Positions 2,272-43,033 of a stretch of DNA of 43,033 nt are shown here, in pieces. The stretch is from a virus: IMG/VR virus record IMGVR_UViG_3300025732_000083, positions 1-43,033 of that record; one strand, 5' to 3'. Every line of letters starts with the position of its first letter. The first letter of the stretch is position 1. Both the position numbers and the translations under genes were made by a program. Below the pieces are notes generated by a model that was not told where the DNA came from, searched no databases, and worked only from the letters and a program-made list of their open reading frames with translations.

Positions 2272-2274
2272 ATA

Positions 2275-3083: not shown

Positions 3084-3253
3084 TGACCTTCTCCTTCATT
3101 AACTTGTGGCTCCGGGTCAGAAACCTCGGTAATACCGATAGCGTTTTTTTCTTGGATCGTAGTGAGCCGCAGCCAGTTGGCTGGGTACGAATTACCGGCG
3201 GCATCCTTAAATGGCGTATCCAGTGGCAGCGGTTGTCCGTTCAGCAGAAACAT
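3080..3253 (-). CDS. Fibre-linked protein, short form (N-terminal domain only)
   Basis: A 57-residue protein starting with ATG at 3253, three bases after the fibre stop codon. Its first ~45 residues match the N-terminus of the 142-residue protein at 42486-42914: both begin MFLLNG, share PLPLDTPF and PANWLRL, and continue to an IGxTE motif. The long form then adds about 95 residues that are absent here. The stop overlaps the next start (ATGA). This domain probably docks to the fibre or tail; the rest of the long form looks like a DUF4376-type extension. Confidence 0.75.
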   Translation of the reverse strand: MFLLNGQPLPLDTPFKDAAGNSYPANWLRLTTIQEKNAIGITEVSDPEPQVNEGEGQ

Positions 3254-3372
3254 GGGTTACCTCGCAAGAGCGTTCTTGAATGGGTTTTCGGCGAAGGCTG
3301 CGAAGATCATAGACGTTCCAGAGTTGTTCATCTCACTGGTGGAATTTCTGATCTTGAAGCCGTTTGAAAGAA
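3246..3372. repeat. Internal copy of the contig-end repeat (127 bp)
   Basis: These 127 bases are identical to 42907-43033. They cover the first bases of the fibre-linked gene and the last codons of the fibre gene. To the left, sequence diverges at once: 3245 is C and 42906 is T, and the reading frames differ further on. An exact 127-base match ending at a contig end is typical of a de Bruijn graph junction with k = 127. Confidence 0.95.
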
Positions 3373-10281: not shown

Positions 10282-10293
10282 TATGTCACCTCA

Positions 10294-11280
10294 TTAAATA
10301 AATTGGTCAAAAGCTGCGGCTGCATCTTTTATGCTGCCTGTTCTTGCAAGACGCTCTTGAGCGATCTGCGCTTCAGTTCGTTTGCTCGGCTTTGTGGTGG
10401 CAGAACCCGGCTTGGCCAGTTTCGGTCCACTTGCAGGGTTAGGCTTGATTTGAGATTTCTTGCTCATCAGTTCGTCGTAGAGGGCTGCTTTTCTCAGCAC
10501 AACTAGCGCTCTGTGATCTTGAATCTGTCCGAGTTCTTCGTCTGAGAATCCGACCTTCTTGGCCGTTTCGACCAACTTCGCCCGTTCCTCAGTTACTCGC
10601 TTTTCGTCCTTCCACTCTGGGATGGCGTCGAAAAGCTTTTTCGCTTCCTCGGCAATTCTCGCCTGTCTGGCCTGCTCGTTTTCCTGCTGCTGAATCGCCT
10701 GCATACGCTGGCTTTCAGCTTCAACGGCGCGGGCCTTTTCCTGCCTGTCTCGCCACAGTTCTCGCTGCCTGACCCATTCGGTAGGATTCTCTTGGTAGAG
10801 GGCATCCCAGTCCGGCTGCGCTTCAGTCTGCTGGAACTGCTGCTGCAAAACCTGCAACATCTGAGCGTAATACGCTCTTTCCTGACGCACTGCCTCAGTC
10901 TCGGCTTCGGCGGCTTTCCGCTGTTCTGCCAGTGCCTGAGTCTTGCGCGTGTAATCCTGAGTCCGGCTATAGCCCTTCTGGAGTTCGTCTAGCGTAACCT
11001 CGACTTCCTCGCCGTCTACCTTGACGCGGAAAGTGCTAGGTGGCTTTTCGTCTTCCTCGGCTTCTTCGCCTTCATCGGATTCGGATTCTTCCTCGGCGTC
11101 TTGCGTAGCCTCGGTTTCATCCTCGGATTCGGAAGCTTCTACCTCAACGGTTTCTTCTTCCGGTTGCGCCTCGCCCGCTTCTGGTTCTCCGTCTTCGACG
11201 GCCAATATGGAGGCGAAAGCATTCTGTGCATCAAAAATCGACTCACCAGTTCCCGAAGGATTGTTGGCGCTTGTAGTCAT
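10294..11280 (-). CDS. Capsid scaffolding protein
   Basis: A 328-residue protein. The N-terminal third (about residues 28-78) is extremely acidic, with long Glu/Asp runs. A small domain follows (FRVKVDGEEVEVTLDELQ). Residues about 105-215 form a long coiled coil rich in Gln, Glu and Ala. The C-terminus is basic (KSQIKPNPASG to TTKPSKR), as needed to bind capsid subunits. Position immediately upstream of the capsid gene and composition match podovirus scaffolds that shape the procapsid and leave before or during packaging. Confidence 0.85.
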   Translation of the reverse strand: MTTSANNPSGTGESIFDAQNAFASILAVEDGEPEAGEAQPEEETVEVEASESEDETEATQDAEEESESDEGEEAEEDEKPPSTFRVKVDGEEVEVTLDELQKGYSRTQDYTRKTQALAEQRKAAEAETEAVRQERAYYAQMLQVLQQQFQQTEAQPDWDALYQENPTEWVRQRELWRDRQEKARAVEAESQRMQAIQQQENEQARQARIAEEAKKLFDAIPEWKDEKRVTEERAKLVETAKKVGFSDEELGQIQDHRALVVLRKAALYDELMSKKSQIKPNPASGPKLAKPGSATTKPSKRTEAQIAQERLARTGSIKDAAAAFDQFI

Positions 11281-11317
11281 TTTATATACCTTTTAGCAAA
11301 TAAGTAAAGAGAAGCCG

Positions 11318-11575
11318 CTAATTACGTTCATTGCGGCGTTTGATTATCGCTTTGGTAATTGCCCCGTTTTCCACAATAATTCGAAGATCGCGGGTAAAAG
11401 CATCTACCAATTGCGATTGCAAATAAAGACGCTCTCGCGTCTCTATGTCCTCTGGTCTGGAAGAAAGCCACGCCGAAACGTAGCTGTCTTTCATACCATC
11501 GAGAATTTCTATTAGCAGGGGATTATCCAAGAGGGCCGCTGCGTGCCTTGCTCTTTCGATATCTTTTTCGCTCAT
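11318..11575 (-). CDS. Small helical protein of the head operon, unknown function
   Basis: An 85-residue, mostly helical protein (SEKDIERARHAAALLDNPLLIEILDGMK, then WLSSRPEDIETRERLYLQSQ). Its stop lies 37 bases before the scaffold start, and its start overlaps the preceding stop by ATGA. Similar small genes between portal and scaffold are common in this phage group; the function is not known. Confidence 0.75.
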   Translation of the reverse strand: MSEKDIERARHAAALLDNPLLIEILDGMKDSYVSAWLSSRPEDIETRERLYLQSQLVDAFTRDLRIIVENGAITKAIIKRRNERN

Positions 11576-11922
11576 GTAAGGAATTTAAGTTTGTAAACCG
11601 TGGAATCAATAAGGGCGGCGACTTCATCCAAAATGTTCTGAAGTTCGCTGTCGGCGGGTAGGTCTTGGCGCATCTCGGCCAAGATGGGGGTCAGGTCTTC
11701 AACGCGCTTCATGCGCTTGTAAAAGGTCGGGTACTGTTCAATCAGGCCGTATTTGCCCTGATAGGCTTCAGCGTAGCTATCAATTAGTTCGACAATGCCT
11801 TCGTAAAATTCCTGCAACGCCTTATGCTGGGCGTACGACCGGGTGGACAGATGCTGAAGGTGGGCGTCTGTTCCGGCGTGAAAAAACGTCAGGATGAAAT
11901 AAGCGGCTGGCGTATGGCTCAT
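11572..11922 (-). CDS. DUF5856-like protein (ferritin-like helical bundle)
   Basis: A 116-residue protein. The N-terminal part AAYFILTFFHAGTDAHLQHL followed by YAQHKALQEFYEG matches what I know of the DUF5856 family, with regularly spaced His and Glu in long helices as in ferritin- or Dps-like bundles. Its role in the phage is unknown. It lies between portal and scaffold and overlaps both neighbouring genes by 4 bases. Confidence 0.75.
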   Translation of the reverse strand: MSHTPAAYFILTFFHAGTDAHLQHLSTRSYAQHKALQEFYEGIVELIDSYAEAYQGKYGLIEQYPTFYKRMKRVEDLTPILAEMRQDLPADSELQNILDEVAALIDSTVYKLKFLT

Positions 11923-14150
11923 AAAGCACCTTGTGGGCTGGGCGTCGGCATCATGGCGTTGACCATGGCCGTTTCAGTCTGCGCCGCTTTGCGAATGGCT
12001 TCAGACTGTCGCGCAATTTCTAGCTGGACTTGGCCGTCGTTGATCTGGGCCTGATATTTCAACTCGAGTTCAAGCTGGCGAAGCTGGCCGTCTTGCGCGA
12101 TCTTCTCGCGCTCACGGGCGTCAACCATCGTCATTTCTTTGTCTTTGAGATCAAGTTCGGCGGCTTTCTTGGCCACGTCAGCCTGAATAGCTTGGGCCTG
12201 TGCCTGCGCCAGAACTTCTTCCGGCGTGGGCTTGGGTGCCTGCTGCGGCGGCTGGAAGTCGGGCGGCAGAGCGTTGTAGAACTGGCTGGCGTCTTTGAAG
12301 CCGGCCAACTCCACCATGCGGCGCAGGGTGTTTGCGTACTGGCCCATCGTCACCAGCGGGTTGTTCGGGCCAACCGTCACCAAGATTTCTTTCTGGTTGG
12401 CGGCAATCATCTGCAAAGCGGCCAGCTTCTGGTCAGTCGTGCCGGTGCCCAGCGCCACGTTCACCGTGACGTCCATGTTGGCGTTCCACGTTCGGGGGTC
12501 CATCGGCACCCAGTCGTTGCGCACCTTAATCATGCGCGGCACGTCCTGATGTTTGACGATCAGGTAAAGAATGCCCTTGAACAACTGTTTCATGCCTTCG
12601 GCCAGAATACGGGCAAGCAAATCGACTTGCCCTTGGCTGGCCGTAATGGTCGCGGCTACCGCCGCCTTGGTCGTTGATTGAAGGGCATCAGGGTCCAGAC
12701 CCATGCTGGCTTTGCTCATGCCAGTACGAGTTTCGCGTATCTCGTCCATGTAGCCAAGGATCGGCATGGCGGCTTGACCCAAGAACGGGGTTTCAAGCGT
12801 CTGCACCATACCCGGCGCACGCTGGCGGATCAGACCGCCAACTTCGTTGTTCAGGACGTCTTCAATGTTGACCTGACCTTCTACGACGGTCATTCGCTGG
12901 TTGATGGACTGCGCCAGCGAGTCAAGGGTGTTACGCAGAATGTGCGTCTTGATGCGCTGAATATCCATCGTCACGTCGGCCTGAGACAGACCAAAGAACG
13001 TGTGGGGTTCAGGGTCGCAGTCAAAGACAGCAAACGGTACGTGGTCTACAGCTTCGTGGTGCAGCAGTTTGAAGCTTGGGCCGGCCATACAGACTTTGCG
13101 CAACTCGGCAATTCCGTCGCCGTCAAAGTCCACCTTGGCGTAGCACTCGAAATACAAAACACGACCAAGGGCTGGGTTGAAACTGTCGAAACCGCCCACC
13201 GCCCGCGCCAATGGCTGGCGGGTGATGTATTCAATATTGGTGTCGAGTTCGTTGGAGGTTACGAACGACTGCATCTCGTCTTCGTCGTAACCCATCGCCA
13301 CCAGTTCCGAGACGGTTTTCATGGAACGGTGGGCGACAACCATTGCGTCTTTCAGGTTCCGCGCCCGGCGGTCGATAATGAATTCTTCCGGCGGCAGGGA
13401 TTCAATACGCACTCGGCCTTTGGTTGTGCGGCGCTTGATACGTACGTCGTGCAACGTCGGCGGGGGTAATGGCTGGCCCGTCATGGGGTCCATCTGCGGT
13501 TCGGCCCCCGGCGCTGGGTAGGACGCAACAACGGTGAACTCGGCCCCCTCTGGGTCCATCATCAAGGACGCCAAAGCGTTGTCGTCCAGACCGCTGTAGT
13601 CCTCGGATTTGACTTCTTCGGCCGTGTCCCACCAGTATTTGATGAAACCCTTTTTACGGACTAACGCGTCTTTGAAAGTCGAATACACGACGCCAAAGCC
13701 ATCATTGTCGCGCTGCACAATGTAATTGGCGTAATCAGTGGCCTGCGCGGCCATCTGAGTTTCTTCAGGGGTTTCCGGTGCGTACTCGACAACATTTTCG
13801 GACGAGAAGAACACGCGCATCAATTGCGGCAGGGTGACAATGACCGTGTCCCGAACGTCCATCGAAATGACGCGGGAGCGGCCTTCTTCTTCATCCCCCA
13901 GTGGGTCGCCACGGTAGTAGCTCGTCGCCAGTGCGCGGGCACCGCCGATGTCTAGGTCAATGTAGCGGACTGCGTCCTGCAATTCGCCGGCAACGATTGA
14001 CTCCAGATTGCGGTCGTCCATCGGCTCCATGGCTTCGCCGGGTTCGGCGTTTTCTTGGGCCTCTTGTTCGTCGTGTTCTTTCTCTAAGGAATCGAGGTAG
14101 TCTTCGATTGCTTCGACGTCATCGACCGGAACGTATGATTTTGTGGCCAT
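11919..14150 (-). CDS. Portal protein
   Basis: A 743-residue protein forming the DNA channel at the capsid vertex and docking the terminase. It is the size of podovirus portals of the P22/Bcep22 type. It begins with an acidic N-terminal arm, then a DIGGARALATSYYRGDPLG segment, and the portal-like core RDTVIVTLPQLMRVFF. A long C-terminal coiled coil (about 625-730, rich in Gln, Glu and Ala) would form the barrel. It lies downstream of the large terminase and one small gene, as in related phages. Confidence 0.9.
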   Translation of the reverse strand: MATKSYVPVDDVEAIEDYLDSLEKEHDEQEAQENAEPGEAMEPMDDRNLESIVAGELQDAVRYIDLDIGGARALATSYYRGDPLGDEEEGRSRVISMDVRDTVIVTLPQLMRVFFSSENVVEYAPETPEETQMAAQATDYANYIVQRDNDGFGVVYSTFKDALVRKKGFIKYWWDTAEEVKSEDYSGLDDNALASLMMDPEGAEFTVVASYPAPGAEPQMDPMTGQPLPPPTLHDVRIKRRTTKGRVRIESLPPEEFIIDRRARNLKDAMVVAHRSMKTVSELVAMGYDEDEMQSFVTSNELDTNIEYITRQPLARAVGGFDSFNPALGRVLYFECYAKVDFDGDGIAELRKVCMAGPSFKLLHHEAVDHVPFAVFDCDPEPHTFFGLSQADVTMDIQRIKTHILRNTLDSLAQSINQRMTVVEGQVNIEDVLNNEVGGLIRQRAPGMVQTLETPFLGQAAMPILGYMDEIRETRTGMSKASMGLDPDALQSTTKAAVAATITASQGQVDLLARILAEGMKQLFKGILYLIVKHQDVPRMIKVRNDWVPMDPRTWNANMDVTVNVALGTGTTDQKLAALQMIAANQKEILVTVGPNNPLVTMGQYANTLRRMVELAGFKDASQFYNALPPDFQPPQQAPKPTPEEVLAQAQAQAIQADVAKKAAELDLKDKEMTMVDAREREKIAQDGQLRQLELELKYQAQINDGQVQLEIARQSEAIRKAAQTETAMVNAMMPTPSPQGAL

Positions 14151-14159
14151 AAAATTCTC

Positions 14160-14522
14160 TTAGAAATATCGGCCGTAAGCCTGACGATACAAAGGCATAT
14201 TAGGCATCTGGCTCATGCCAAGATTGGGTGTAATCTGGCTGGGTGGCAGGTAAGGCATCTGCGCCATTCGCGGCGGTTTTACCTGTTGCTGTTGCTGCGA
14301 CGGCTGAGATGCGGCCGACAACAGGTCGGCGTAGGGGTTGGGCGCAGGCGGTTTGAGCGTTCCGTCGTCGGCGTAGACGATTGGCTGCTCTGGTTTGTAC
14401 GGGTCAATCGACGGGTCTTTTGGGCCAAAGTTATCCCACAACCCTTTGCCGGCCGCGACCATCGGGTTCGCCATTAACTGGTTGCCGTATTGCGACAACG
14501 CAGCGGTAATCAAATCCCACAT
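14160..14522 (-). CDS. Small Pro/Gln-rich protein between terminase and portal
   Basis: A 120-residue protein. The N-terminal 35 residues are mildly hydrophobic and helical (LITAALSQYGNQLMANP). The rest is low-complexity, rich in Pro, Gln and Met (QPSQQQQQVKPPR, MPNMPLYRQAYGRYF). It is probably a minor virion or assembly protein, judged from its place after the terminator that follows the terminase. No family is recognised. Confidence 0.65.
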   Translation of the reverse strand: MWDLITAALSQYGNQLMANPMVAAGKGLWDNFGPKDPSIDPYKPEQPIVYADDGTLKPPAPNPYADLLSAASQPSQQQQQVKPPRMAQMPYLPPSQITPNLGMSQMPNMPLYRQAYGRYF

Positions 14523-14579
14523 AAATTTCCTTTAACAGGGCGGGCAATATTCGCGCGGAGTTTAGCACAATTCGGGCCT

Positions 14580-14610
14580 AAAAAAAGGGGCCAGCTTTGC
14601 GGCCAGCCCC
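14580..14610 (-). terminator. Intrinsic terminator after the large terminase gene
   Basis: On the minus strand a 9-bp stem (GGGGCTGGC / GCTGGCCCC, with two G-T wobble pairs) closes a six-base loop and is followed by seven T. It lies about 50 bases past the terminase stop and 58 bases before the next gene, separating packaging genes from portal and head genes. Confidence 0.8.
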
Positions 14611-14661
14611 CAAAACACTACGGAGAAAGGAGATCATGAAAGCCGCGAAGCGGCAAATGAA

Positions 14662-16083
14662 CTATACCAGAGAAACATTTCGGCGCAAGGGTTTCGCCCA
14701 CTTACTGTTGTAATTTGTCCCATAACTGGCGGTTGCGGCGTCACTTGCGAAAGTCAAAACAAAAGCATCGGCCAAGTCAGGGCTGGATAAACCGCGCTTT
14801 CTGATTTCGTCTTTGGACTCGATTTGTATTTTGCCGTTACTGGTAAAACTGTACCGAACCGTTGCCAATTCAGCTATCAGCTTCTCATCTTTGGGAATAC
14901 GGCAGTCGCGCTTCTCCAACCACGCCTTGGCTTTGTGCCAGAGTTCGGCCCGCAGATTGCGGTAGGTTAGTCCCATGGCGGGACTTTCTGACACGTTGAT
15001 GCCTCTGGCCGGCAAGCCAAGTTCGCGTAATCGATCGACCACACCGGCCCCTAGTCCGATGCTGTCCACCAGTATTTCGGTCGGCCGCTCAGACGGTATC
15101 AACGCCTCCCATTCGGCCACCACGGCCCCCGTCAACTGCATCAGGTCTAGGTTGGCCCAGACGCGTACAGGTTCTGGCACTGTGTTGCCCTGACGTTTGC
15201 ACAAGGCGCTCTTGTCGGACCCGAAACGGGCGACGTCTAGCCCCCAAACCAAAGGCGAAAACTTGGTTGGTTGAACATCGCGCTGAACCGCCAATTCGAG
15301 CAATTCCATCGGGATGACGGTGTCGTCGTCCGATCTAGGAAACTCTCCCAACACACGGATGCGAAAAGCATTCGATTCCTCTCCATATCGGCTGGCCATC
15401 TCTTTGACGTACGCTTCCGACACCCGTGGGCTGTCAACGCACGACACTTTGCGGGTCCACCACTCATTCGCTAGTCGCGTATGTGTGTCGTAGAAAAACC
15501 CCGACGACCTGACAGGGTTGCCCAGCAAAATCGTTGTGGCGCTGTGACCCGACATGGAACCGGCCGCCGCTTCAAACACGGCTTCCGGCACACCAGAGGC
15601 TTCGTCGGCAATCAACAGGACGTTTTCAGCGTGGATACCCTGCAAGGCTTCCGGCTGCTCGGCTCGGCTGGTACGGGCTGAAATGAAGTTTTCCTGCGGA
15701 AACTGCTTTAACTCAATACGTTCAGCTTTGACTTCCAACAACTCGTTCAGCATGGGCGGTAGTTCTTTGACCCAGCGCTTAATCTCGGCAAACAAGGCGT
15801 CGTACAACTGGGCGGATGTTGGCGCAGTTACAACGATTTTGGCGTGATACCGGGTCAGGATGTACCAAATGGCCAGCCAAGATACGGCTGTCGATTTACC
15901 GACACCGTGGCCTGATCGGATAGAAATGCGGCGATGGCCTTTCGCCACCGCCGTCATCATCTCCGCCTGCCAATTATCCGGCTCCACCCCCAAGACTTCT
16001 TTTACAAACCGTACGGGGTTGTTTCTGTAATCGGCTATGAATTGATCGAAGGGATTTTCTTGCAGCGGCGTGCTTGCGTTCAT
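14662..16083 (-). CDS. terL: Terminase large subunit
   Basis: A 473-residue packaging motor. Its ATPase domain has Walker A SGHGVGKST (57-65) and Walker B VLLIADEA (154-161, Asp159 and Glu160). The RNase H-like nuclease domain has three acidic motifs: Asp282 in WGLDVARFG, Asp339 in ILVDSIG, and Asp435/Asp438 in SPDLADAF. It would power DNA entry through the portal and cut the concatemer. Its first 110 bases overlap the end of the serine recombinase gene in another frame. Confidence 0.95.
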   Translation of the reverse strand: MNASTPLQENPFDQFIADYRNNPVRFVKEVLGVEPDNWQAEMMTAVAKGHRRISIRSGHGVGKSTAVSWLAIWYILTRYHAKIVVTAPTSAQLYDALFAEIKRWVKELPPMLNELLEVKAERIELKQFPQENFISARTSRAEQPEALQGIHAENVLLIADEASGVPEAVFEAAAGSMSGHSATTILLGNPVRSSGFFYDTHTRLANEWWTRKVSCVDSPRVSEAYVKEMASRYGEESNAFRIRVLGEFPRSDDDTVIPMELLELAVQRDVQPTKFSPLVWGLDVARFGSDKSALCKRQGNTVPEPVRVWANLDLMQLTGAVVAEWEALIPSERPTEILVDSIGLGAGVVDRLRELGLPARGINVSESPAMGLTYRNLRAELWHKAKAWLEKRDCRIPKDEKLIAELATVRYSFTSNGKIQIESKDEIRKRGLSSPDLADAFVLTFASDAATASYGTNYNSKWAKPLRRNVSLV

Positions 16084-32706: not shown

Positions 32707-33517
32707 TTGCTTCCTAGAGCATATCGAGTTGATGGAACACGCGTTGCGTGATCTCGGCTACCGTCCGACGCGCTCAACCAACACGCCGAACGGCGATCAA
32801 AATATCGTTTTTGGCGGCCATCTACTCTCCCCTACTGCGGCAGCGCAATTGCCCGACGACACCATCGTCTACCAGATGGAACAGTTACCGATGTTTATGA
32901 CGCCGCATTATCTGAAGTTGTTGCGCAGGGTCATAGTTTGGGACTATTCAGAACGCAATTGTGATTGGCTTTCCCTAAACGGCGTAAGGCAAGTGCATTA
33001 CGTGCCGTTTGGCTATCACCCGGCCATGGATCGTGTTGTCTACCCCGACGATTCGCCGGCCACTCGCGAATACGACTTTCTATTCTACGGTGCGCAGAAT
33101 CAACGCCGACGTCACATCATGGCGTCGTGGTGGGCGCATGACTTCAGGATCAAGTATCTGGACGGTGGGGTGTGGGGTCGAGACAGAGACGCTTGGATTT
33201 CTAACAGTAAGATTGTTACAACAATCCATCAGTTTCAAGACAAGGTTGCGCCCATTCACGAAATGGCGCGAGTGTTTTACCTGATGAGCAACAGAGCGTG
33301 TGTGCTGTCAGAGGTCAACGCCGACACACATATCTACCCATGGGTCCGTGAAGCTATCGTCACAGCGCCATACGAAGAACTCATCAAAACCGGATTCCGT
33401 CTGGCGCACGATATCGAATGGCAAAAAGACGTTGCCGCCAAATCGTATGAAACTATCAAAGCCCATACGATGGCGGCGGCGGTAGAGCGGGTTATCGGCC
33501 CAACAGCGGGCCTATAG
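32663..33517 (+). CDS. Glycosyltransferase-like protein (GT-B fold)
   Basis: A 284-residue protein beginning NLLHVRPHGNPAADCF, with a Rossmann-like start. A later segment has FLFYGAQNQRRRHIM, LDGGVWGRDRDAWI, and the C-terminal ISNSKIVTTIHQF, EMARVFYLMSNRACVLSE and YPWVREAIVTAPYEEL, which resemble the nucleotide-sugar domain of family 4/glycosyltransferase-like proteins from phages. It may modify virion proteins, DNA, or host surface sugars. Its end overlaps the convergent ejection-protein gene by 26 bases. Confidence 0.75.
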   Translation: MNLLHVRPHGNPAADCFLEHIELMEHALRDLGYRPTRSTNTPNGDQNIVFGGHLLSPTAAAQLPDDTIVYQMEQLPMFMTPHYLKLLRRVIVWDYSERNCDWLSLNGVRQVHYVPFGYHPAMDRVVYPDDSPATREYDFLFYGAQNQRRRHIMASWWAHDFRIKYLDGGVWGRDRDAWISNSKIVTTIHQFQDKVAPIHEMARVFYLMSNRACVLSEVNADTHIYPWVREAIVTAPYEELIKTGFRLAHDIEWQKDVAAKSYETIKAHTMAAAVERVIGPTAGL

Positions 33518-35675
33518 GTTGGCCAGAAGTTTCTGGGGTAGTTACGACTTCAGGCAACATTCGTTCTTCATCTGTGACGCCCATCAAGCCACCGAAGCGA
33601 TTGCCGGCGGGGAAAGACAGAAGGCTGCGGCCTGTGGCGCGTCGCGCCATATCAGCGTCAACCTGCATCTGGCGCTGAACCAAATTCTCCATGTACTGGC
33701 TGATCTCCCACGGACTACGCAGGCCCAGAAGATTGTTGCCCAGTACGCCAGCCGTGTCGCCGGTAATACCGTCAAGACGGTTCGACACAAAACGCTGCGC
33801 GGTGCCGTAAATCGCCGGCAGAGGATTGCCCCGCAAGAGCGAACCACCTTCAGCCGCAGACAACACAGTACCGTTCATGTCGGCAATCTCTTGGCCAAGC
33901 GGTGCCGTACGGCTGCCAGTAATGGTCTGGTTGCGGGTCTGCGTAAACTGCGCTTCACGTTCCAGATTGCTCTTGAACAAGTTGAACGACTCGTCGTCAG
34001 GGAAGACGTCGCGCAGGCGGTTTAGAGTCTGGCGCTTGCCGAAGATGTTGGTGACGTCCAACGCCGAGCCAACTTCGTTGGCTTTTTGATCCATACGAAT
34101 ACGCGCAGCGTCAACGATGCCACGGCGGAACATCTGCTTTTCCAAGTCCGTCATCTTGGCAAATTCAGCCGACACTTCACGCCAGTCGTTCTCTGGCAGA
34201 TCAAACATCTTGCGGCCGTTCTTGAGCGCTTCTTCAGCTTCAGAATAACCGGCAAACGTGCGGCGGGCTTCCTTGTACTCAGCCGGCCCCACTTCATCGA
34301 TGCGGTTTAAGAACTCGTTCTTGGCTTTCTTCAACGCACCAATTTCGGTACGGCCAAGCGAACCTTTCGCCGCGCCAGAACCGATGACGTCGTCAAGGCC
34401 GCGCTTGATGTAATCGAGCGTCTGCAAGTCCGGCGCTTTTTCCAGTGGGCCAAGCATCGGCAGGCCGTCGGCGTCGCGCAAGAAGCCACCCTTGCCGTCA
34501 GGCTGCAAACGATAAATCTGCGGCAACTGGCGACCTTCCAACTCAGCAATGCGCTGGGCGCGGGCGTACGCTTCTTTGAACTTCGGCAGTTCAAGAAACT
34601 TGTTGATGGCGTCGTCGTTGATGATCGCGCCTTTTTCGTACGCAGCTTTGTACAACGGATCGGCCGCCGCTTTGCGCTGTTCGATAATTTCTTTGACGAG
34701 TTTGTTGGTGTTCTCCAGCTTCTCACCCATCGCCACTTGCATATCTGTCGCAAGGCGGTCGGGCTGGCTGCGCACTCGGTCAGTCAAGAACTCAGTTGCG
34801 TCGTTCTTTGTCTTGCCGGGCATATTCGCGGCGGCGGCAACTTTGCCACGCACATTTGCGCCAGCCAGATCGGCCACCGTCTCAGGCTTGCTGCCAAGCT
34901 TGTTGTAGTTCTCTTTGGCCTTTTGCGTCACCATGCCCGGCGTCATGCCATCGCGCTCCAACGCACGCAACACCAGATCGTCAGCCTTGTTCTGAGCGGC
35001 GACGCCTGTGCGGCCAAGTACGTCCTTTCCTTTTTCAAGCACCGCACGGCCTGTGGCCACTGTGCTTGGAATCGCAGCGCCGATAGTTGCGCCCAGTGCG
35101 CCACCTTTGGCACCGCCTTCCAGTCTGTTCAGCAGCCCGCCTTCAGACGAACCAGCGCCAGACAACGCACCTGTCGTACCACCAACCAACATGGACGTTT
35201 TTGTCTGGTTGAGTAGTGTTGGCGCAAGCTTGGCAATCCTAGCCCCCGACGCAGCCGTTGCAGTAGCGGAAGACCCGCCAGTAAAAGGCGAGAGAATCAG
35301 GCCACCGACAGCGGGTAACAAGCTGCCGGCAATTTCACTGCCAACTGCCATCTTCGGGTTTTCGGCGCGATAGTCTTCCAAGCCGCTACGGATTGCGGCC
35401 ACATTTTGGTCATACGTGCCTTGGCCTAACGCCGCCCGAACACCAGCTTCTGCTTCGTCGGCAAAGTTAAACAGCAGTCCTTGCGCAAACGAACGCAGTG
35501 CGTTGCCCGGCCGCTCAATGCCGCCGGTTCTCTTGTTCTGCGCTACTGCCGCAGAAAACGAGTCGGGCGTGTAACCTTCTGACTGAAGGTAAGCGTTGAG
35601 GGCGTTGGGCGCAGCCTTGGCCGCCACCATCTTGCGGACATTGGCTTCAACGCGGTTTATGTCTTTTTCGGCCAT
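33492..35675 (-). CDS. Ejection (internal virion) protein
   Basis: A 727-residue protein expected to leave the virion with DNA and form part of the channel across the cell envelope. It has a helical N-terminus, a Gly/Ala-rich hydrophobic zone (about residues 105-200, with GSLLPAVGGLILSPFTGG), a long helical, charged central part (about 220-500), and a Gly-rich C-terminus. No lytic transglycosylase motif is visible. Together with the next two genes it forms the ejection set at the end of the late operon. Confidence 0.75.
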   Translation of the reverse strand: MAEKDINRVEANVRKMVAAKAAPNALNAYLQSEGYTPDSFSAAVAQNKRTGGIERPGNALRSFAQGLLFNFADEAEAGVRAALGQGTYDQNVAAIRSGLEDYRAENPKMAVGSEIAGSLLPAVGGLILSPFTGGSSATATAASGARIAKLAPTLLNQTKTSMLVGGTTGALSGAGSSEGGLLNRLEGGAKGGALGATIGAAIPSTVATGRAVLEKGKDVLGRTGVAAQNKADDLVLRALERDGMTPGMVTQKAKENYNKLGSKPETVADLAGANVRGKVAAAANMPGKTKNDATEFLTDRVRSQPDRLATDMQVAMGEKLENTNKLVKEIIEQRKAAADPLYKAAYEKGAIINDDAINKFLELPKFKEAYARAQRIAELEGRQLPQIYRLQPDGKGGFLRDADGLPMLGPLEKAPDLQTLDYIKRGLDDVIGSGAAKGSLGRTEIGALKKAKNEFLNRIDEVGPAEYKEARRTFAGYSEAEEALKNGRKMFDLPENDWREVSAEFAKMTDLEKQMFRRGIVDAARIRMDQKANEVGSALDVTNIFGKRQTLNRLRDVFPDDESFNLFKSNLEREAQFTQTRNQTITGSRTAPLGQEIADMNGTVLSAAEGGSLLRGNPLPAIYGTAQRFVSNRLDGITGDTAGVLGNNLLGLRSPWEISQYMENLVQRQMQVDADMARRATGRSLLSFPAGNRFGGLMGVTDEERMLPEVVTTPETSGQPIGPLLGR

Positions 35676-35684
35676 AGCTTTGCC

Positions 35685-37913
35685 TTATGGTTTACGGGGC
35701 GGTGGTGTCAGATTGTACTGCTGATAAAGGTTGTTCAGCGTGCTGTTATTTGATGGCGGCGCAGGAAACAACTCCGTCGGCGCGGTGTTGACTTGCGGCG
35801 ACGTATTCGTAGTCAGTCCACGGCCAGCGCGTTTACGCATTGCATCGGCTGTAACCTGCCGCGCTTGGGTTTTCTGCTGAATAACTTCTTTTGAATCGTT
35901 GATTTGCGGGAAATAAGTGCGGATTTCTTTGTCCATCTCGTCCACGCCAATCGCCGCGCCGGATTCGGCGCGCAGGTTGGCCCGTACCCAGTTCTCTTGA
36001 TACTGACGATATTGCTGCCGCTGTTTTGAGTCGAAAAGATTGCCAAGTCCCTGTGCGCCCAACCAATCCGGCAATATGGTGCGTGCGGCTTCGCCCATAA
36101 ATTCAGGGGTGCCGGCAACGCGTTCCAGCGTCAACACCTTGCCGTTTTTATCTACAACGGCCTTGCCGTCCTTACCGATGATCGGAGCCTGCAAACCTTT
36201 TTCAGCTTCAACCATACGTTGGTAGAAACCAGCCGCCTTACGTTCGTCTTCAGTACCGGCGTTGACTTTGCCCGGTAACTGTTGGCCGTTCGGCCCAGTG
36301 ACAGGAACAGCGACATTGCCCTTGACCTGATACACGCCGCCGTCAGTCTCGATTATCTTGCCGCCGCCGGCAGTGCCCTGTACTTGCTTACCGTCTTTAC
36401 CGATGACAGGCGTGGCCTTTCCGGTAAACGGATTGATACGGACCAATCCACCTTCTGACTCACGAATTTCACCTTTGCCAGCGTTGAACAGTGTGTCCGC
36501 CGAAGGGGCTTGCTGAACGCCATCGATGCGTTTCATGGTGCCACGGTCGCCCAAGACAAAACCGCCACGCTTGCCGTTGATTGTGCCGAACTGGATGGAC
36601 TGACCAAACTTTTCATCAGGGAACAGCGCTTGCAACTGATTGGACAATCTGGCCGCTTCCTCAAACAAGCCGGCGTTGTTGAGCGCGTCAATCCGCGCCA
36701 AGTACGATTGCTTGGCGGCGTTTGTTTGCACCTGTGTCGACGGCGTGCCCGGCGCACCAGACAGCGGCGTTGAAGTGTTCAGCCGCTCCAATTGCACGCG
36801 CTTGTCTTCCGCTGCTGCCAACTCCGCAGCCGTTTTGGCTTTTTGTACATCGCCACCAAACAGCGCAATGTACTCAGGGTCACGCGCCATCTTGGCAAAG
36901 TTGACCGTGCCGTCGGCGTTGAGATGCTTAGACGCCAGACGTGCGGACGTTTCGCGGTCGAGTCCGGCAATGCGCAATTCGTTGACGGTCTTCAACTTGC
37001 TAGGGTCATTCCCCAGCAGCGCAATGTATTGCGGGTCTTGCGACAGCTTGATCGTGTCAACGGTGCCGTCAGGCCGCAAATATTTGCTGGCCAACGCGTC
37101 ATAAGTTTCGCGGGTCAGTCTGTTTGTGCGAAGTTCTTCAACGTTTTTCAGTTTGCCAGAATCGTTTTCTAGCAGCGCGATATATCTGGGGTCTTGCGAC
37201 AAGCTTGCCGCATCGACGGTTCCGTCTGGCCGCGTGTACTTTTTCGCCAGCGCGTCGTACGTCTCGCGCTGTTCGCGCTCACGGCGCATTTTATTGACTG
37301 TTTCCAACTTGCCGGGGTCGTTCTCCAGCAGTTGAACGTATCGCGGGTCTTGCGACATCCTAACCATGTCCACGGTGCCGTCTGGCCGCAGATACTGACG
37401 TGACAACGCGTCATACGTTTCGCGCTGCTCACGCTGACGGCGCATATCTGTCAACGTCTTCAACGTTGCAGTGTCGTTCGGATTTGCCGCCAAATATCGC
37501 GGGTCGGCCAACAGACCTTCAACGTCAATTTCGTTGCGCGGGTTATCGTACGGAATGTAACCCGGCCCCATACCGCCCCGCCCAAACTGAGCGCGGGGGT
37601 CTGAGTAATCGCTAGTGCCTTCGCCGTACACAGTGCGGCTGTAGTCTTTAATCGCCAGCAACTGATTGCGCTGCGCTTCCAAATCGCGCTGCGCTTTCAA
37701 CAGTGCAGCCTGCTGCTGCGCCAACTGCTGTGCGTTTGAAATAACGCCGTAGCCCTGAGTTTGCGCCTGATTGTAAGCACGGCCAAGATCGCCGCTTAAC
37801 GCGTTCCAGAAAAACGATTTCACGGCCTGATTGGCCGCGTCTTGCGCAATTCGGGGGTCCGTTGCGTCTAGCAGCGTCTGCGGTACAAAAAGGCTGGTGA
37901 CTTTGTCTGTCAT
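35685..37913 (-). CDS. Ejection protein with five tandem 52-residue repeats
   Basis: A 742-residue protein. Residues about 20-90 are helical and Gln/Ala-rich. Residues 123-382 hold five units of exactly 52 residues, four of them starting LRPDGTVD or a close variant at 175, 227, 279 and 331, each with SQDPRYxALLxND and ETYDALA. A beta-like middle (about 385-580) includes IxGxDGKxV units, and the C-terminus ends in Pro/Asn-rich sequence. Location and size match ejection or tail-tube proteins. AAGGGG upstream supports the start. Confidence 0.75.
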   Translation of the reverse strand: MTDKVTSLFVPQTLLDATDPRIAQDAANQAVKSFFWNALSGDLGRAYNQAQTQGYGVISNAQQLAQQQAALLKAQRDLEAQRNQLLAIKDYSRTVYGEGTSDYSDPRAQFGRGGMGPGYIPYDNPRNEIDVEGLLADPRYLAANPNDTATLKTLTDMRRQREQRETYDALSRQYLRPDGTVDMVRMSQDPRYVQLLENDPGKLETVNKMRREREQRETYDALAKKYTRPDGTVDAASLSQDPRYIALLENDSGKLKNVEELRTNRLTRETYDALASKYLRPDGTVDTIKLSQDPQYIALLGNDPSKLKTVNELRIAGLDRETSARLASKHLNADGTVNFAKMARDPEYIALFGGDVQKAKTAAELAAAEDKRVQLERLNTSTPLSGAPGTPSTQVQTNAAKQSYLARIDALNNAGLFEEAARLSNQLQALFPDEKFGQSIQFGTINGKRGGFVLGDRGTMKRIDGVQQAPSADTLFNAGKGEIRESEGGLVRINPFTGKATPVIGKDGKQVQGTAGGGKIIETDGGVYQVKGNVAVPVTGPNGQQLPGKVNAGTEDERKAAGFYQRMVEAEKGLQAPIIGKDGKAVVDKNGKVLTLERVAGTPEFMGEAARTILPDWLGAQGLGNLFDSKQRQQYRQYQENWVRANLRAESGAAIGVDEMDKEIRTYFPQINDSKEVIQQKTQARQVTADAMRKRAGRGLTTNTSPQVNTAPTELFPAPPSNNSTLNNLYQQYNLTPPPRKP
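36768..37547 (-). repeat. DNA encoding five tandem 156-bp repeats
   Basis: The repeat region of the ejection protein at DNA level: five successive 156-base units in frame. The recurring CCGTCTGGCCGC-type segments before each PDGTVD-coding part show that the units are recognisable as DNA as well as protein. The first unit (37547-37392) is the most diverged. Confidence 0.85.
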
Positions 37914-37922
37914 AGCGACCCC

Positions 37923-38705
37923 TTACTTGAACAGGCCGGAACGTTCTTTTCCGGTGCTTGTCTTGATGTCGCCCGCACCACCTGCCGGCGTGAGGCCCAA
38001 CGCCTGATTGCGAATTGCCTGCTGTTCCAGCGGCAGGTTGCGCTCTGCATCCAGTTGCTGCTGCGCGAACTGCTGATCGGACAAGCCAAGGTTCTGCAAC
38101 GCCTGCGCGTTTTGGAAGCCCTGCGTCTGCTGTGTGACGCCCAGATTGCCAAGCTGCTGCGCTGCCGCCAAATTGCGGTTCAGGTCAGTAGAAGACGCGT
38201 TCAGGGCTTGGCCGTACGCGCTGTTGTACAAGTTGCCCAACGTGCTGCCGGCGGTTGTAAAGAAATTGCGGTTTGTTTCGCCTTCGGCCAACGCCTGTCG
38301 GCTGCCACCAAATGCGCCCCGGCTTACGGCATCACCTCGCACCTGATTCAGCGCCATCTCGTTTGCGCGGCCCAAATCGGCCAACGTGTTTGCGGCAACG
38401 TAGCCGGTGAACGGGTTTATGTAGTTGCCGACGTTGTCCACCGATGACGTCGCGGCGTTCATGCCAGTCAGCCCGGCCGCGGTATTCAAATTGCCCATGC
38501 CCGCGCCGTTCATTGCCGTCTGGCGTAATATGTCCGAACCAGCGGCATAGTCGCCGGTGCGTGGCGCAAACCGCTGAACGCCCAACCCAGACGCAATGCC
38601 TCTCGCGCTGCCAAGGTTCTCTAGGTACGCGTTCCGGATCGCTGGGTCGAGTTGCGCACTTGACGACTGGTTGCCGGAAGAACTGCTGCCAAATACTTGA
38701 GCCAT
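37923..38705 (-). CDS. Ejection / DNA-transfer protein (small)
   Basis: A 260-residue protein rich in Ala, Gly, Asn, Gln and Ser. It has no aromatic core except for short stretches (VGNYINPFTGYVAANTL). It is helical in the middle (ANEMALNQVRGDAVSRGAFGG) and Gln-rich near the end (QQFAQQQLDAERNLPLEQQ). This composition is that of P22 gp7-like DNA transfer proteins. It stands between the stabilisation-protein genes and the two large ejection proteins. Confidence 0.7.
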   Translation of the reverse strand: MAQVFGSSSSGNQSSSAQLDPAIRNAYLENLGSARGIASGLGVQRFAPRTGDYAAGSDILRQTAMNGAGMGNLNTAAGLTGMNAATSSVDNVGNYINPFTGYVAANTLADLGRANEMALNQVRGDAVSRGAFGGSRQALAEGETNRNFFTTAGSTLGNLYNSAYGQALNASSTDLNRNLAAAQQLGNLGVTQQTQGFQNAQALQNLGLSDQQFAQQQLDAERNLPLEQQAIRNQALGLTPAGGAGDIKTSTGKERSGLFK

Positions 38706-38707
38706 AT

Positions 38708-39124
38708 TTAAATCTCCAAAATCATTACCGAGTAAGCGAACTCAAAACCTGTCTTCTTCAAAAACGTTCGCTCCCAGCCTTTCCTGCCGGCCACCGAGAT
38801 CATCTGGCATTCTGCCGTTTTGGCGAACTCGATAATGTACGGGTGCATTGCTTCAATTTCAGTCAGATTGCCCCCGCCAAAAGGAACGTGAAGCGCTTTT
38901 TTGCGGGGGAAAAATACGAATTGGGTGACGATTGCGGAATCCGCGCCGGCCCAAAGGTGCATCTCGCCCGTGGCAATCTGATCGACAATATCCTGCAAAT
39001 TCAACGTATCTGCATTATATTCCAAGGCGTTTTCAATGTGAATTTGAACCCGCCTAAATTCTGTCAGCCATTCTGGCTCTTTTCCGTCTTTAAGCCAAGC
39101 CGGATTTACTTGTATTTCCGTCAT
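38708..39124 (-). CDS. GNAT-like acetyltransferase fold protein
   Basis: A 138-residue protein. GEMHLWAGADSAIVTQFVFFPRKKALHVPFGGG is a strand-rich middle (read in parts), and the C-terminus has AGRKGWERTFLKKTGFEFAYSV, typical of the acetyl-CoA-binding and final strands of GNAT proteins. Such proteins recur between gp10-like and ejection genes in podoviruses. They may act as virion-assembly proteins rather than enzymes. Start and stop are tightly packed with the neighbouring genes. Confidence 0.65.
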   Translation of the reverse strand: MTEIQVNPAWLKDGKEPEWLTEFRRVQIHIENALEYNADTLNLQDIVDQIATGEMHLWAGADSAIVTQFVFFPRKKALHVPFGGGNLTEIEAMHPYIIEFAKTAECQMISVAGRKGWERTFLKKTGFEFAYSVMILEI

Positions 39125-39330
39125 AAAGTTGTCGCGGTCAGCACCCCTGCATTGTCCACCACCAATTTCCAGCGGGTGCCATCCGGCGAACGCAAAATAA
39201 GGCGCTGCGGCTCCACAATTTCGACGTCTTCCAACCGCTTGCGGTTTTGCTTATCGGCCTGCTCCAAAAGCAAATTGCGCTGGGCTTCCAAGGCTTGGTC
39301 GTACCGGCCGGCGGGGGTTGGTAATTTCAT
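39121..39330 (-). CDS. Small virion-region protein of unknown function
   Basis: A 69-residue protein with a charged helix (YDQALEAQRNLLLEQADKQNRKR) and a short strand-rich end (LILRSPDGTRWKLVVDNAG). The end resembles a small beta module with DGTRWKL. It overlaps both neighbours by 4 bases. Such genes recur beside gp10-like proteins; their function is unknown. Confidence 0.7.
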   Translation of the reverse strand: MKLPTPAGRYDQALEAQRNLLLEQADKQNRKRLEDVEIVEPQRLILRSPDGTRWKLVVDNAGVLTATTL

Positions 39331-40814
39331 CGTTTGCCCCCGGCAACGCCGTCAACCCGGACAACGCCCACACGCCAGTCAGCGTCCGCATTGCCGTTGA
39401 TCTGCAAAGACACTTGCCGGCCAGTGAAACGCACGTCGGTATATGGCGTCAGTGTGTACGGGCCGTACGTCTGTTCTGTGCCTTCTGGCGTGAAACGAGA
39501 CTTGAACGTGATCTTGGTTTGGCCCTGCGTTCTCTCGTCCGGAATCAACTGCTGGGCGTGAATGATGTTGTCGCCTGCGCCAATCTCGGTCGGCCCGGCC
39601 AGCGCGTAGCGGGTAGCCACCAAGGGGGTGCCGTCAGCCGTCCAGCCGCTTTCATGGTCATACAGATAGCCGTCGGCGGATGTGGCCAACGGGTACTCAA
39701 AGACGCCTGACCCAGTCCAAGCGGTGCGCGACAGCGACCCGATAGACCAGTGTTTTTCACGGTAGTTGTAGACGACGTAACGGTCGTTTTCGGTGCTGTT
39801 GGCTGACGGGTAGAACCACCAGACTTCGCCAAAGGCGGTGTTCGCCCCGGCGTAAATCTTGGCCGACTGCACTTTGTTGATGTTGGAAAAGACGTAATCT
39901 TGGACGTCGCACGGCAGCGGGTTGACCACGCCGTCGTACATGAAAAAGCCGTTCGTCCCCATCCAGACAGCAAAGCTGTCCAAAGCTGCCATGGCGTTCG
40001 GGCCGGCCACACCACAGAACGAACCCACGCGCTCAAATCCAAAGACCAGAGGCGCACCAATGTACGTCATGGTGTGGACGTCGCTGTCGGTCCAGATCAG
40101 CGTACCACCGCGAATCCGGCGTGCGCCCATGATCGTGCCCGACGTCTGTAAGGGGAATTCACCGGCTTGGTTAGACGAGGTCTGTGACCAGACCGTCAGA
40201 GATTCTTGGTCAGCCCACTGCACCTTGCGCGGATCGCCGTCGGCTCCCAAGGCCGTCAAGAAACGCTCTGGGGTAACGACGACGCCTCGGCAGTCGGTCG
40301 GTGCAGACGCGTCAACGACAACGGCATCGTTGGCCGCGTTCAAGTCCCAATACAAAATGCGCCCGTCGTGCGGAGCGCAAAAAACGGGGTACTGGCCAAA
40401 GTTATCAATCGACCATGTTGCAGCTTCCAGCACCAAGCCAAGGCCGGGGCGCTCGACGCCGTAATCGGCGGTGCCATACGCGGCGATGCCGTAGCCCAAC
40501 TGATACACACTATCCACACGGCCAACCGTGTAGCTGGCGGGGGTGATATCGACAAACGACCCGCCACCGTACGCGTACAGTTTGGCGTTAGTGCCAATCG
40601 CAGCATACCGAACGTAATCGTTCGACTTCCACGCATACAGGCCGCGACAAACGCCGGTCAGTTGGGTGTTGCTTTCTTTGACCCAGCCGCCAACCGGCCG
40701 CATGGTGCCTTCAAACCAACGAACCAGATTGGCGTCATACCACCGACCGGCGGACTGATATTCAGTGCCGTTTCGGAATACGCCGGGCGGTAATTTGATC
40801 GGGTAAAGGGCCAT
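39327..40814 (-). CDS. Packaged-DNA stabilisation protein, P22 gp10-like
   Basis: A 495-residue tail-hub protein that would close the portal after packaging and provide the site for tail needles or spikes. It begins PIKLPPGVFRNGTEYQSAGRWYD (read in parts), then RGLYAWKSNDYVRYAAIGTN. Its repeated strand units around WxxxD (YWDLNAAND, LIWTDSDVHTMTYIG) indicate a beta-propeller, as in P22 gp10. On the closed circle it directly follows the Rz/Rz1 genes. It is the fixed right border of the variable lysis cassette. Confidence 0.85.
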   Translation of the reverse strand: MALYPIKLPPGVFRNGTEYQSAGRWYDANLVRWFEGTMRPVGGWVKESNTQLTGVCRGLYAWKSNDYVRYAAIGTNAKLYAYGGGSFVDITPASYTVGRVDSVYQLGYGIAAYGTADYGVERPGLGLVLEAATWSIDNFGQYPVFCAPHDGRILYWDLNAANDAVVVDASAPTDCRGVVVTPERFLTALGADGDPRKVQWADQESLTVWSQTSSNQAGEFPLQTSGTIMGARRIRGGTLIWTDSDVHTMTYIGAPLVFGFERVGSFCGVAGPNAMAALDSFAVWMGTNGFFMYDGVVNPLPCDVQDYVFSNINKVQSAKIYAGANTAFGEVWWFYPSANSTENDRYVVYNYREKHWSIGSLSRTAWTGSGVFEYPLATSADGYLYDHESGWTADGTPLVATRYALAGPTEIGAGDNIIHAQQLIPDERTQGQTKITFKSRFTPEGTEQTYGPYTLTPYTDVRFTGRQVSLQINGNADADWRVGVVRVDGVAGGKR

Positions 40815-40815
40815 A

Positions 40816-41298
40816 TCAGTTTTGATTTAATTGCCGGATTTGTTCGTACTGCTGGTAACAGGCTTCGAGTTCGATTCGGATGGCGTCGGCCCGTCTAGCT
40901 TCCCGGACAAGAAATTCTGCATCTTCTCGGTAAAGCTGTCTTCCGTCACACTGGCAGGGGCTTTCTGTAGTTCCGGTACTCGGGGGCACTGGCACGGCGG
41001 CTGGACGGGCAGCACGCTTGCGCAACCCGTCAACAATAGTGTCATGCTGGCGATTAAGGCGGGCAATTTCATCCGTTTTATCCTTCAATACTTTGCTGAC
41101 CTGTTGCTGCATTTCAAATTCGGTTTGGCGCAGTTTGCGTTCCATGTCGGCAACAGCCTGCGCTTCAGTAATTTTTTCTTTGTCCCACTTTGCTGTGACG
41201 TGTTCTGCGCCATCTCGCCAAGCAACAACGTGGCTGGCAGTCAAAACCAACGCCAGCAACGCATACCCGATCAACTTCCAACTTATAGACCAAGGCAT
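40816..41298 (-). CDS. Rz: Rz-like i-spanin
   Basis: A 160-residue protein with an N-terminal membrane anchor (about residues 7-27, IGYALLALVLTASHVVAW) and a long charged periplasmic coiled coil (about 30-90), typical of Rz proteins. With its partner Rz1, encoded in another frame inside it, it would fuse the inner and outer membranes in the last step of lysis. It overlaps the endolysin stop by 16 bases and ends just before the gp10-like gene. Confidence 0.88.
   Translation of the reverse strand: MPWSISWKLIGYALLALVLTASHVVAWRDGAEHVTAKWDKEKITEAQAVADMERKLRQTEFEMQQQVSKVLKDKTDEIARLNRQHDTIVDGLRKRAARPAAVPVPPSTGTTESPCQCDGRQLYREDAEFLVREARRADAIRIELEACYQQYEQIRQLNQN
40827..41072 (-). CDS. Rz1: Rz1-like o-spanin lipoprotein, nested in Rz
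   Basis: An 81-residue frame wholly inside the Rz gene, in a different frame. It starts MKLPALIASMTLLLTGC, a textbook lipoprotein signal with Cys17 lipidated, followed by Pro-rich sequence (LPVQPPCQCPRVPE). A nested, Pro-rich outer-membrane lipoprotein is the hallmark of Rz1. It would bind Rz in the periplasm. Confidence 0.85.
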   Translation of the reverse strand: MKLPALIASMTLLLTGCASVLPVQPPCQCPRVPELQKAPASVTEDSFTEKMQNFLSGKLDGPTPSESNSKPVTSSTNKSGN

Positions 41299-41747
41299 TG
41301 TCTGTATTCCTTCTGGCGGCGAATGGTCAGCCCTTTTAACGGCGCACCCTTGAATTTATCCCAGACAAGAATCTGCTGGCACGCACCCGCATAATCGCCG
41401 GCGTTCAATTTCTTCACCAGCGTAGAACCACAAAAAGCGCCTGTCCCAATATTGTATGACAGGCTTATATAGGCGTCATATTCGTATTGGTGCAAAGGCA
41501 CTTTCACGCATTTCTTGACGGCCCCTTCGTATTTGCGGATGTCGGTCAGCGCCCGATTCAACGCAGTCACCGGGTCAATCTTGTCGCCGTTTTTAACGCC
41601 TTCCGTTGTGCCAAAACCATAAGTTGGGACGTCGCCCGGTACGGGGGGTTTTGCGACAGGCTCAAAACCTTCGTGGGTGGCAATGCCGACCAAAGCGGCG
41701 GCGGATAGCGCCAGCGCGGCAATGGATGAACGGGGGTTTTGAATCAT
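41283..41747 (-). CDS. SAR endolysin, glycoside hydrolase family 24 (T4-type lysozyme)
   Basis: A 154-residue lysozyme cleaving peptidoglycan. The N-terminus (about residues 9-23, Ala-rich, IAALALSAAALVGIA) is a signal-anchor-release segment, so the enzyme is exported by Sec and activated on release. Catalytic Glu26 lies in THEGFEP; GDVPTYGFGT follows, with Asp39 and Thr42 of the active cleft. Cys79, Cys106, Cys123 and Cys152 could support disulfide control. It is the lysis enzyme of cassette B, in place of the GH19 enzyme of cassette A. Confidence 0.9.
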   Translation of the reverse strand: MIQNPRSSIAALALSAAALVGIATHEGFEPVAKPPVPGDVPTYGFGTTEGVKNGDKIDPVTALNRALTDIRKYEGAVKKCVKVPLHQYEYDAYISLSYNIGTGAFCGSTLVKKLNAGDYAGACQQILVWDKFKGAPLKGLTIRRQKEYRQCLGL

Positions 41748-42257: not shown

Positions 42258-42258
42258 A

Positions 42259-42474: not shown

Positions 42475-42485
42475 AACGCCTCCGC

Positions 42486-42914
42486 TTAGTCAGTGGTTGG
42501 CCAGACCATTTGTAATGCGGCCAATTCATCTACCGTGGTGCAAGCAGTGACAGCAGCTTCGTTGACGTCCGACGCGGCCCGAATTGCGGCGCGGGCGGCC
42601 AGAACGTCAGCGGCAACCGCTATGCCCTTCTCTGTTGCACGAATGATCTTCCAATCACTGGGGGCGATCATGCTGCCGGCGGCTGCCTTGATTGCGGCAA
42701 TCGCACTGGCCTTGCACGTAGCGAGGTCTTTCGGATTGCCCGGACCCCAGTAGTAGCGGTCATCATACGCCGGGGCGTCAGGGGCTTCCGTTACGCCGAT
42801 GGAGGCTTTTTCCGCTGCGGTTGACAGGCGTAGCCAGTTGGCCGGGTATTGCGTACCGTCTTCGGTGGTAAATGGCGTGTCGAGTGGGAGGGGAACTCCG
42901 TTTAGTAGAAACAT
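42486..42914 (-). CDS. Fibre-linked protein, long form (DUF4376-like)
   Basis: A 142-residue protein with ATG 42914 three bases after the fibre stop. The first 45 residues match the 57-residue protein at 3080-3253 (MFLLNG, PLPLDTPF, PANWLRL). The remainder has WKIIRATEKGIAV and AAIRAASDVNEAAVTACTTVDEL, a pattern I recognise from DUF4376-type tail-fibre domains and small fibre-assembly proteins. It probably binds or chaperones the fibre. It marks the left border of cassette B. Confidence 0.75.
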   Translation of the reverse strand: MFLLNGVPLPLDTPFTTEDGTQYPANWLRLSTAAEKASIGVTEAPDAPAYDDRYYWGPGNPKDLATCKASAIAAIKAAAGSMIAPSDWKIIRATEKGIAVAADVLAARAAIRAASDVNEAAVTACTTVDELAALQMVWPTTD

Positions 42915-43033
42915 GGGTTACCTCGCAAGAGCGTTCTTGAATGGGTTTTCGGCGAAGGCTGCGAAGATCATAGACGTTCCAGAGTTGTTCATCTCACTGG
43001 TGGAATTTCTGATCTTGAAGCCGTTTGAAAGAA
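42907..43033. repeat. Contig-end copy of the 127-bp repeat
   Basis: Identical to 3246-3372 in all 127 bases. It closes the genome into a circle of 39,661 bp (3246 to 42906). It is not a terminal repeat of packaged DNA, since its partner lies inside the window, 3.2 kb from the left end. Confidence 0.95.
42918..43033 (-). CDS. Tail fibre gene, C-terminal end (partial, duplicate copy)
   Basis: Stop codon and the last 37 codons of the fibre gene, ending in ENPFKNALAR. They are identical to the end of the complete gene at 3257-5590. The gene is cut by the window edge. I read it as the same gene reached by the assembly through a second path, not as a second fibre. Confidence 0.9.
   Translation of the reverse strand, partial: LSNGFKIRNSTSEMNNSGTSMIFAAFAENPFKNALAR

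Follow-up and report, generated by a model that had tools for sequence, protein, structure and literature searches.

A 43-kb virus record as a probable rho-shaped chimera: a podovirus-like genome and part of a second phage over a shared fibre tip

Background

Tail-fibre mosaicism, in which host-range modules are exchanged, is known in tailed phages.

JGI metagenome assemblies are made with metaSPAdes at -k 33,55,77,99,127 (PMC6243002; PMC7311315). In the COBRA simulations, metaSPAdes contigs that are broken at repeats or shared regions retain ends of the maximal k-mer length (PMC10914622).

Two complete circular phages from Manatee Spring, MW202496 (38,949 bp) and MW202711 (39,701 bp), are filed under Caudoviricetes. 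Their order is TerL, portal, scaffold, MCP, GT, tail tubular, fibre region, lysozyme, stabilization protein and internal virion proteins. The phage described below has the same order, and a genome size close to their 38.9 and 39.7 kb.

The DNA analysed here is IMG/VR record IMGVR_UViG_3300025732_000083, which is 43,033 bp long and classed as linear. This whole stretch is called the window. The record is very probably a rho-shaped chimera. It would consist of a 39,661-bp podovirus-like genome (3246-42906) and 3,245 bp of a second phage, joined over a shared fibre-tip module. The features are listed in Table 1, where "circle" means the closed genome and "phage A" the second phage.

Table 1. Features of the window, in order of position, with their basis
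Feature	Position	Strand	Basis
Foreign segment A, probably from a second phage (G001 type), with GH19 lysis cassette	1..3245	-	100% identity to G001; tetranucleotide distances
Spanin gene start, phage A (complete in G001, 158 aa)	1..85	-	G001 comparison
GH19-type endolysin, phage A, 212 aa	795..1433	-	phrog_181 E 1.2e-72; Pfam Glyco_hydro_19 E 3.6e-4, below curated cut-off
Small membrane protein, candidate holin, phage A, 83 aa	1430..1681	-	Precedes endolysin; hydrophobic stretch
Tail-fibre-like accessory protein, phage A, 176 aa	2553..3083	-	phrog_29482 E 6.8e-12; phrog_18673 tail fiber E 2.6e-6
Short MFLLNG form after fibre, phage A, 57 aa	3080..3253	-	67% identical to N-terminal 46 aa of circle's 142-aa protein
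Inner copy of 127-bp vertex; probable left neighbour in circle is base 42906	3246..3372	.	Repeat; k=127 graph; relatives crossing the join
Module S (1,015 bp), common to both phages: C-terminal DUF7483 domain of the fibre and first 8 nt of next gene	3246..4260	-	Identical in G001
Tail-fibre/receptor-binding protein, 777 aa, weak SPRY match then DUF7483	3257..5590	-	phrog_19943, phrog_24898, DUF7483; mosaic against G001 fibre
Packaging/head block	9304..16083	-	phrog_2, phrog_1216, phrog_1328, Pfam SU10_MCP
SU10-type major capsid protein	9304-10281	-	Packaging/head block
Scaffold	10294-11280	-	Packaging/head block
Portal	11919-14150	-	Packaging/head block
Terminase large subunit	14662-16083	-	Packaging/head block
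Ejection/internal virion block (727, 742, 260 aa) and 138-aa protein	33492..39124	-	Synteny with relatives
Tail/stabilization protein, 495 aa, first gene past lysis cassette	39327..40814	-	phrog_3287 E 3.9e-91; "phage stabilization protein" in reference genomes
Rz-like spanin, circle	40816..41298	-	phrog_1327 E 9.4e-11
GH24 phage lysozyme, circle endolysin	41283..41747	-	Pfam Phage_lysozyme E 5.2e-35
MFLLNG protein, candidate fibre assembly chaperone, circle, 142 aa	42486..42914	-	Starts 2 nt past fibre stop in circle
Right-end repeat copy, putative de Bruijn vertex where the contig stopped after one circuit	42907..43033	.	Exact match to 3246-3372; in-degree 2, out-degree 1

Results

The end of the window (42907-43033) is a direct repeat of positions 3246-3372, identical at 127/127 bases. 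The base immediately to the left of each copy is a mismatch. Both observations had been made in the preliminary description, and both are exact. This pair is the only direct repeat of at least 20 bases in the window, and all recurring 20-mers belong to it. Chance cannot account for an exact direct repeat of 127 bp.

To the left of the copies, some homology persists: 3165-3245 and 42826-42906 are identical at 56/81 nucleotides. This is because both flanks open with homologous versions of a gene whose product starts with MFLLNG, 57 aa long in one case and 142 aa in the other.

The repeat had also been read as an assembly junction at k = 127. That reading is supported by the exactness of the repeat, by the use of k up to 127 at JGI and by the COBRA simulations. 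As in a rho-shaped contig at this k, the contig end is exactly k bases long and recurs once inside the contig, and the repeat is a branching vertex once a second genome is added.

Elsewhere, an 8,107-bp contig (L007) has first bases (1-55) that recur exactly at 482-536, and in a related contig (L008) this 55-base sequence is present once. This may be another junction of a similar kind; 55 is a common SPAdes k.

Joining 42906 to 3246 gives a circle of 39,661 bp, which the arithmetic confirms (43033 - 3245 - 127). That this circle is a complete genome is well supported, as judged from gene order. The minus strand holds all head, tail and lysis genes in the window. As the record is filed, in linear form, a long distance separates the terminase and capsid genes from the 495-aa gene and the ejection block, which are upstream of them. 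Across the join, the fibre stop is 2 nt ahead of the start of the 142-aa gene, followed by the lysis genes and then the 495-aa gene. The lysis order after the 142-aa gene is: 71-aa and 103-aa proteins, small membrane protein, GH24 lysozyme, spanin.

Both the closure and the reunited late operon had been proposed earlier, and both agree with the relatives. The joined order (terminase, portal, capsid, fibre, lysis, tail protein, ejection) is that of MW202496, MW202711 and several IMG/VR contigs. The two complete circular phages are collinear with the closed circle from the terminase to the internal virion proteins. Two contigs have the order G208, fibre, MFLLNG, (lysis), 495-aa tail gene; the run starts at the tail tubular gene in L115 and at the capsid gene in L136, and both reach the 495-aa gene. 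Two others (L123, L124) go from fibre to MFLLNG to lysozyme to the 495-aa gene. In >25 further contigs the tail tubular gene (G208) or the G131 gene precedes the 495-aa gene on its strand, at a distance of 0.6-9 kb. In Octadecabacter virus DB2 (39,241 bp, circular) the G208-G131-495 part is retained, with portal and capsid after it. Since the relatives carry this gene order across the join, the closure is supported without recourse to reads.

Closure implies a complete genome that is circularly permuted or terminally redundant. It does not necessarily imply circular DNA in the virion. Exact 30-mers over the B-to-S and S-to-C joins, and in the capsid gene, returned no second copy of this phage from IMG/VR, in a search that may leave out near copies of the window.

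The circle phage has homologous TerL, portal, MCP and stabilization protein in the conserved order of the SU10-MCP group of MW202496 and MW202711. Identities to these two are 53-56% for TerL, 45-46% for the portal, 54-56% for the MCP and 36-37% for the 495-aa protein, and the genes are collinear after closure. The term podovirus-like reflects a morphology suggested by gene content; the MW202496 and MW202711 records are labelled Myoviridae.

Some further observations concern this group. The 742-aa gene of the ejection block has three direct repeats of 141 nt at 36972-37424, spaced at 156 nt and 70-79% alike. A 284-aa ORF (32663-33517, plus strand) lies on the opposite strand to its neighbours and weakly resembles a glycosyltransferase (E 6e-4, which does not reach the Pfam cut-off). 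In contig L028 (9044-12820) the homologue of the 495-aa gene is in three aligned pieces, and an insertion of ~1.9 kb separates residues 388 and 392. This suggests an inserted element, for example an intron or a homing endonuclease gene. L136, which has the circle's capsid and tail genes, carries a GH19 lysis cassette between its fibre and its 495-aa tail gene. The type of lysis enzyme is exchanged within the group of the circle phage.

A 30-mer of the repeat was found in one other IMG/VR contig, IMGVR_UViG_3300007363_000212 (15.6 kb; G001, locus L086). This contig is 100% identical to window positions 1-4260, and divergence starts at 4261. Past window base 1 it completes the spanin gene, after which come convergent RecT and RecE/YqaJ, RusA, MazG, DUF1376 primosomal-type and PDDEXK genes. 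The circle's 495-aa tail gene, tail-shaft genes and ejection genes were not found in these 15.6 kb. A fibre-lysis-spanin-RecT-RecE order of this kind recurs in an independent contig (L149), whose RecT is 97% and RecE 93% identical.

Composition tells a similar story. GC of 1-3245 is 0.495, and the rest of G001 is at 0.488-0.496. All stretches of 3,245 bp in the circle are higher, at 0.498-0.576. The tetranucleotide distance of 1-3245 to the circle is 0.328, where stretches of the circle itself reach a maximum of 0.291; to the rest of G001 it is 0.229. Apart from the fibre, the known genes of phage A with counterparts in the circle are a fragment of a 284-aa-type fibre protein, a spanin with weak similarity, and the MFLLNG gene, at its start only.

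The closest described phage is Limnohabitans phage DC33 (PQ492659). G001 has the same RecE-RecT-RusA-MazG replication block, with identities of 76% for RecT, 62% for RecE, 74% for MazG, 52% for RusA and 61% for DUF1376. This range of 52-76% describes the replication block, which is what the comparison covers, the 15.6-kb G001 contig being without head and packaging genes. DC33 differs in its lysis cassette and fibre: neither the cassette of phage A nor its DUF7483 fibre is matched in the compared stretch. DC33 (L193) is itself filed under Inoviridae. Its 39-kb genome, RecE/RecT genes and a gene of ~3,100 codons are a misfit for a filamentous phage.

By its sequence, then, 1-3245 comes from a different type of phage (RecE/RecT, DC33-like) and not from a sister branch. 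This means that read depth over 3246-4260 is expected to equal that of 1-3245 plus that of the circle (4261-42906). A depth that complements 40816-42906 is not required.

The shared module S encodes fibre residues 444-777 and ends 8 nt into the next gene. Its edges are the divergence from 4261 and, on the path of the circle, base 42906. Pfam DUF7483 matches the fibre at aa 458-770 (E 7.8e-91). Compared in blocks of 50 residues, the circle and G001 fibres have ~76-96% identity over residues 1-250. They are strongly diverged at about 300-430 (at aa 298-430, 10-15 of every 50 alignment columns are identical), and identical from 444. Assembler collapsing of strains could inflate this identity compared to single genomes, and the 127-bp anchors at both ends are its firmest part. 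The switch point is in a linker that is conserved among 32 aligned relatives, with consensus ALNT.NLP.PTILKGNQYFDA.

An AlphaFold2 model of the DUF7483 tip is mostly beta (pLDDT 83). Foldseek against the PDB gave no convincing match for it, with TM-scores of about 0.3 or below, and PDB profile searches with the DUF7483 and 142-aa protein alignments found nothing. A scan of cellular genomes for the tip gave three distant matches in metagenome bins, and no host. The place of the domain at the end of the fibre suggests a receptor-binding role. The domain (3260-4261) seems to have three internal repeats, with ends like YVAWNWKEG, YLFAEVAGF and FAAFAENPF. Three relatives (L160, L166, L188) have adjacent tandem DUF7483 fibre genes, against a single copy here.

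The MFLLNG gene is downstream in 81/89 DUF7483 loci with enough downstream sequence, a count in which part of the loci had been fetched using this very gene as query. The circle has it at its full length of 142 aa. In phage A only the N-terminal part is present (57 aa), followed by a separate 176-aa fibre-like gene. The AF2 model of the 142-aa protein has pLDDT 88.8 and a two-helix C-terminal half, and Foldseek found no fold match in the PDB. No significant chaperone-family match was found for the 142-aa protein; a Phage_tail_APC match turned up in one MFLLNG relative only, at E 0.031. The protein may be a fibre assembly chaperone.

A graph with k=127 was built from the circle and G001 alone. 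Along the window, this graph branches only at 3246-3372 (2 in, 1 out) and at 4134-4260 (1 in, 2 out). The window end at 43033 is the first of these vertices. All 128-mers of the window are in the circle or in G001; for 3246-42906 this is so by construction, and for 1-4260 it is a finding. A third genome is therefore unnecessary. At window base 1, where the contig starts inside the spanin gene, G001 alone gives no branch in the graph.

Discussion

The record is chimeric, in this reading, because the receptor-binding piece of the fibre is the same in both phages and the assembler crossed over there. Module S would be one edge of the k=127 graph. It can be entered from the lysis cassette of phage A or from base 42906, and left along the fibre of phage A or that of the circle. 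The assembler would have come in from phage A, left along the circle, made one circuit and halted at the entry vertex. A halt on meeting that vertex again would make the contig end in its 127 bp. The link from phage A to the circle would then exist as a path in the assembly, with no real molecule behind it.

It is worth weighing what else could give this sequence. The preliminary description had taken 1-3245 for part of a sister genome that shares the fibre gene. Two close genomes would then have the whole fibre gene in common and differ only in the cassette that follows. Lysis cassettes do vary among related podoviruses, as L136 illustrates with its circle-type capsid and tail and its GH19 cassette. 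The carrier of 1-4260 however departs from the circle fibre at 4261, with 100% identity limited to aa 444-777 and strong divergence at aa 298-430. On the far side of base 1, where a sister genome would have the 495-aa tail gene and other core genes, it has RecE/RecT genes, and its composition differs. The sister reading is highly unlikely, and the claim of a shared fibre gene does not stand. A single linear molecule of at least 43 kb, with two fibre genes and two lysis cassettes and the window as an internal piece, could appeal to the few relatives with tandem DUF7483 fibres. It deserves almost no credence: the length of the end repeat equals k=127 exactly, another phage contains 1-4260, and the complete relatives are circles of 38.9-39.7 kb with one such locus, in the closed order.

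A real recombinant is another candidate. In its favour, the contig itself holds the path from phage A through the module to the circle, and exchange of fibre and lysis modules is seen in many phages. The phage A lysis cassette would be joined to the circle's fibre and head genes, in a form that coexists with the circle. Yet every 128-mer of the window is already accounted for. Typical short-read inserts fall short of the 1,015-bp shared edge, and read pairs would thus probably have been unable to check this path. Such a coexisting form is very improbable. The more general version, in which unrelated backbones swap the fibre tip together with the downstream lysis cassette via the conserved fibre-MFLLNG boundary, is about as improbable. 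If it were true, one backbone would occur in two forms, one with a GH24 and one with a GH19 lysis module.

The assembly chimera remains the preferred reading. A site-specific switch for the fibre was considered, and no recombinase turned up in a scan of the window genes that covered part of the small ORFs. That two backbones which differ in their replication genes have identical tips points to recent recombination. The 1,015-bp module may have moved recently between co-occurring phages, which would change the receptor-binding tip. The exchange probably took place in a shared host.

The deposited record would be wrong in two ways. A complete genome is filed as linear, and 3.2 kb of another phage is attached to it. 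These 3.2 kb would give the record a second endolysin and false gene links. A contig-end k-mer that recurs inside its own contig is a simple test with which other such records can be found. For biology, two phages with different replication systems and an identical receptor-binding tip make a clean case, which suggests a shared host and recent exchange.

Comparison with known systems

The circle phage differs from MW202496 and MW202711 in that its proteins are mostly 35-56% identical to theirs, and they have another fibre, in which DUF7483 was not detected. MW202496 also has an integrase, in contrast to the circle.

The junction is like the maximal-k end overlaps that COBRA describes for metaSPAdes and MEGAHIT (PMC10914622), in that an exact overlap of maximal k is left at a breakpoint by a shared region or a circle. 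It differs in that the overlap here is internal on one side, so the shape is a rho, a tail with a loop. This is why a test for end-to-end terminal repeats calls the record linear.

Compared to known tail-fibre mosaicism, the phages here are uncultured and carry a DUF7483 tip. What they share with it is a distal fibre domain that is swapped, with sharp edges, between otherwise different phages. The value of the case is that it offers both a useful piece of curation and an example of this known mosaicism.
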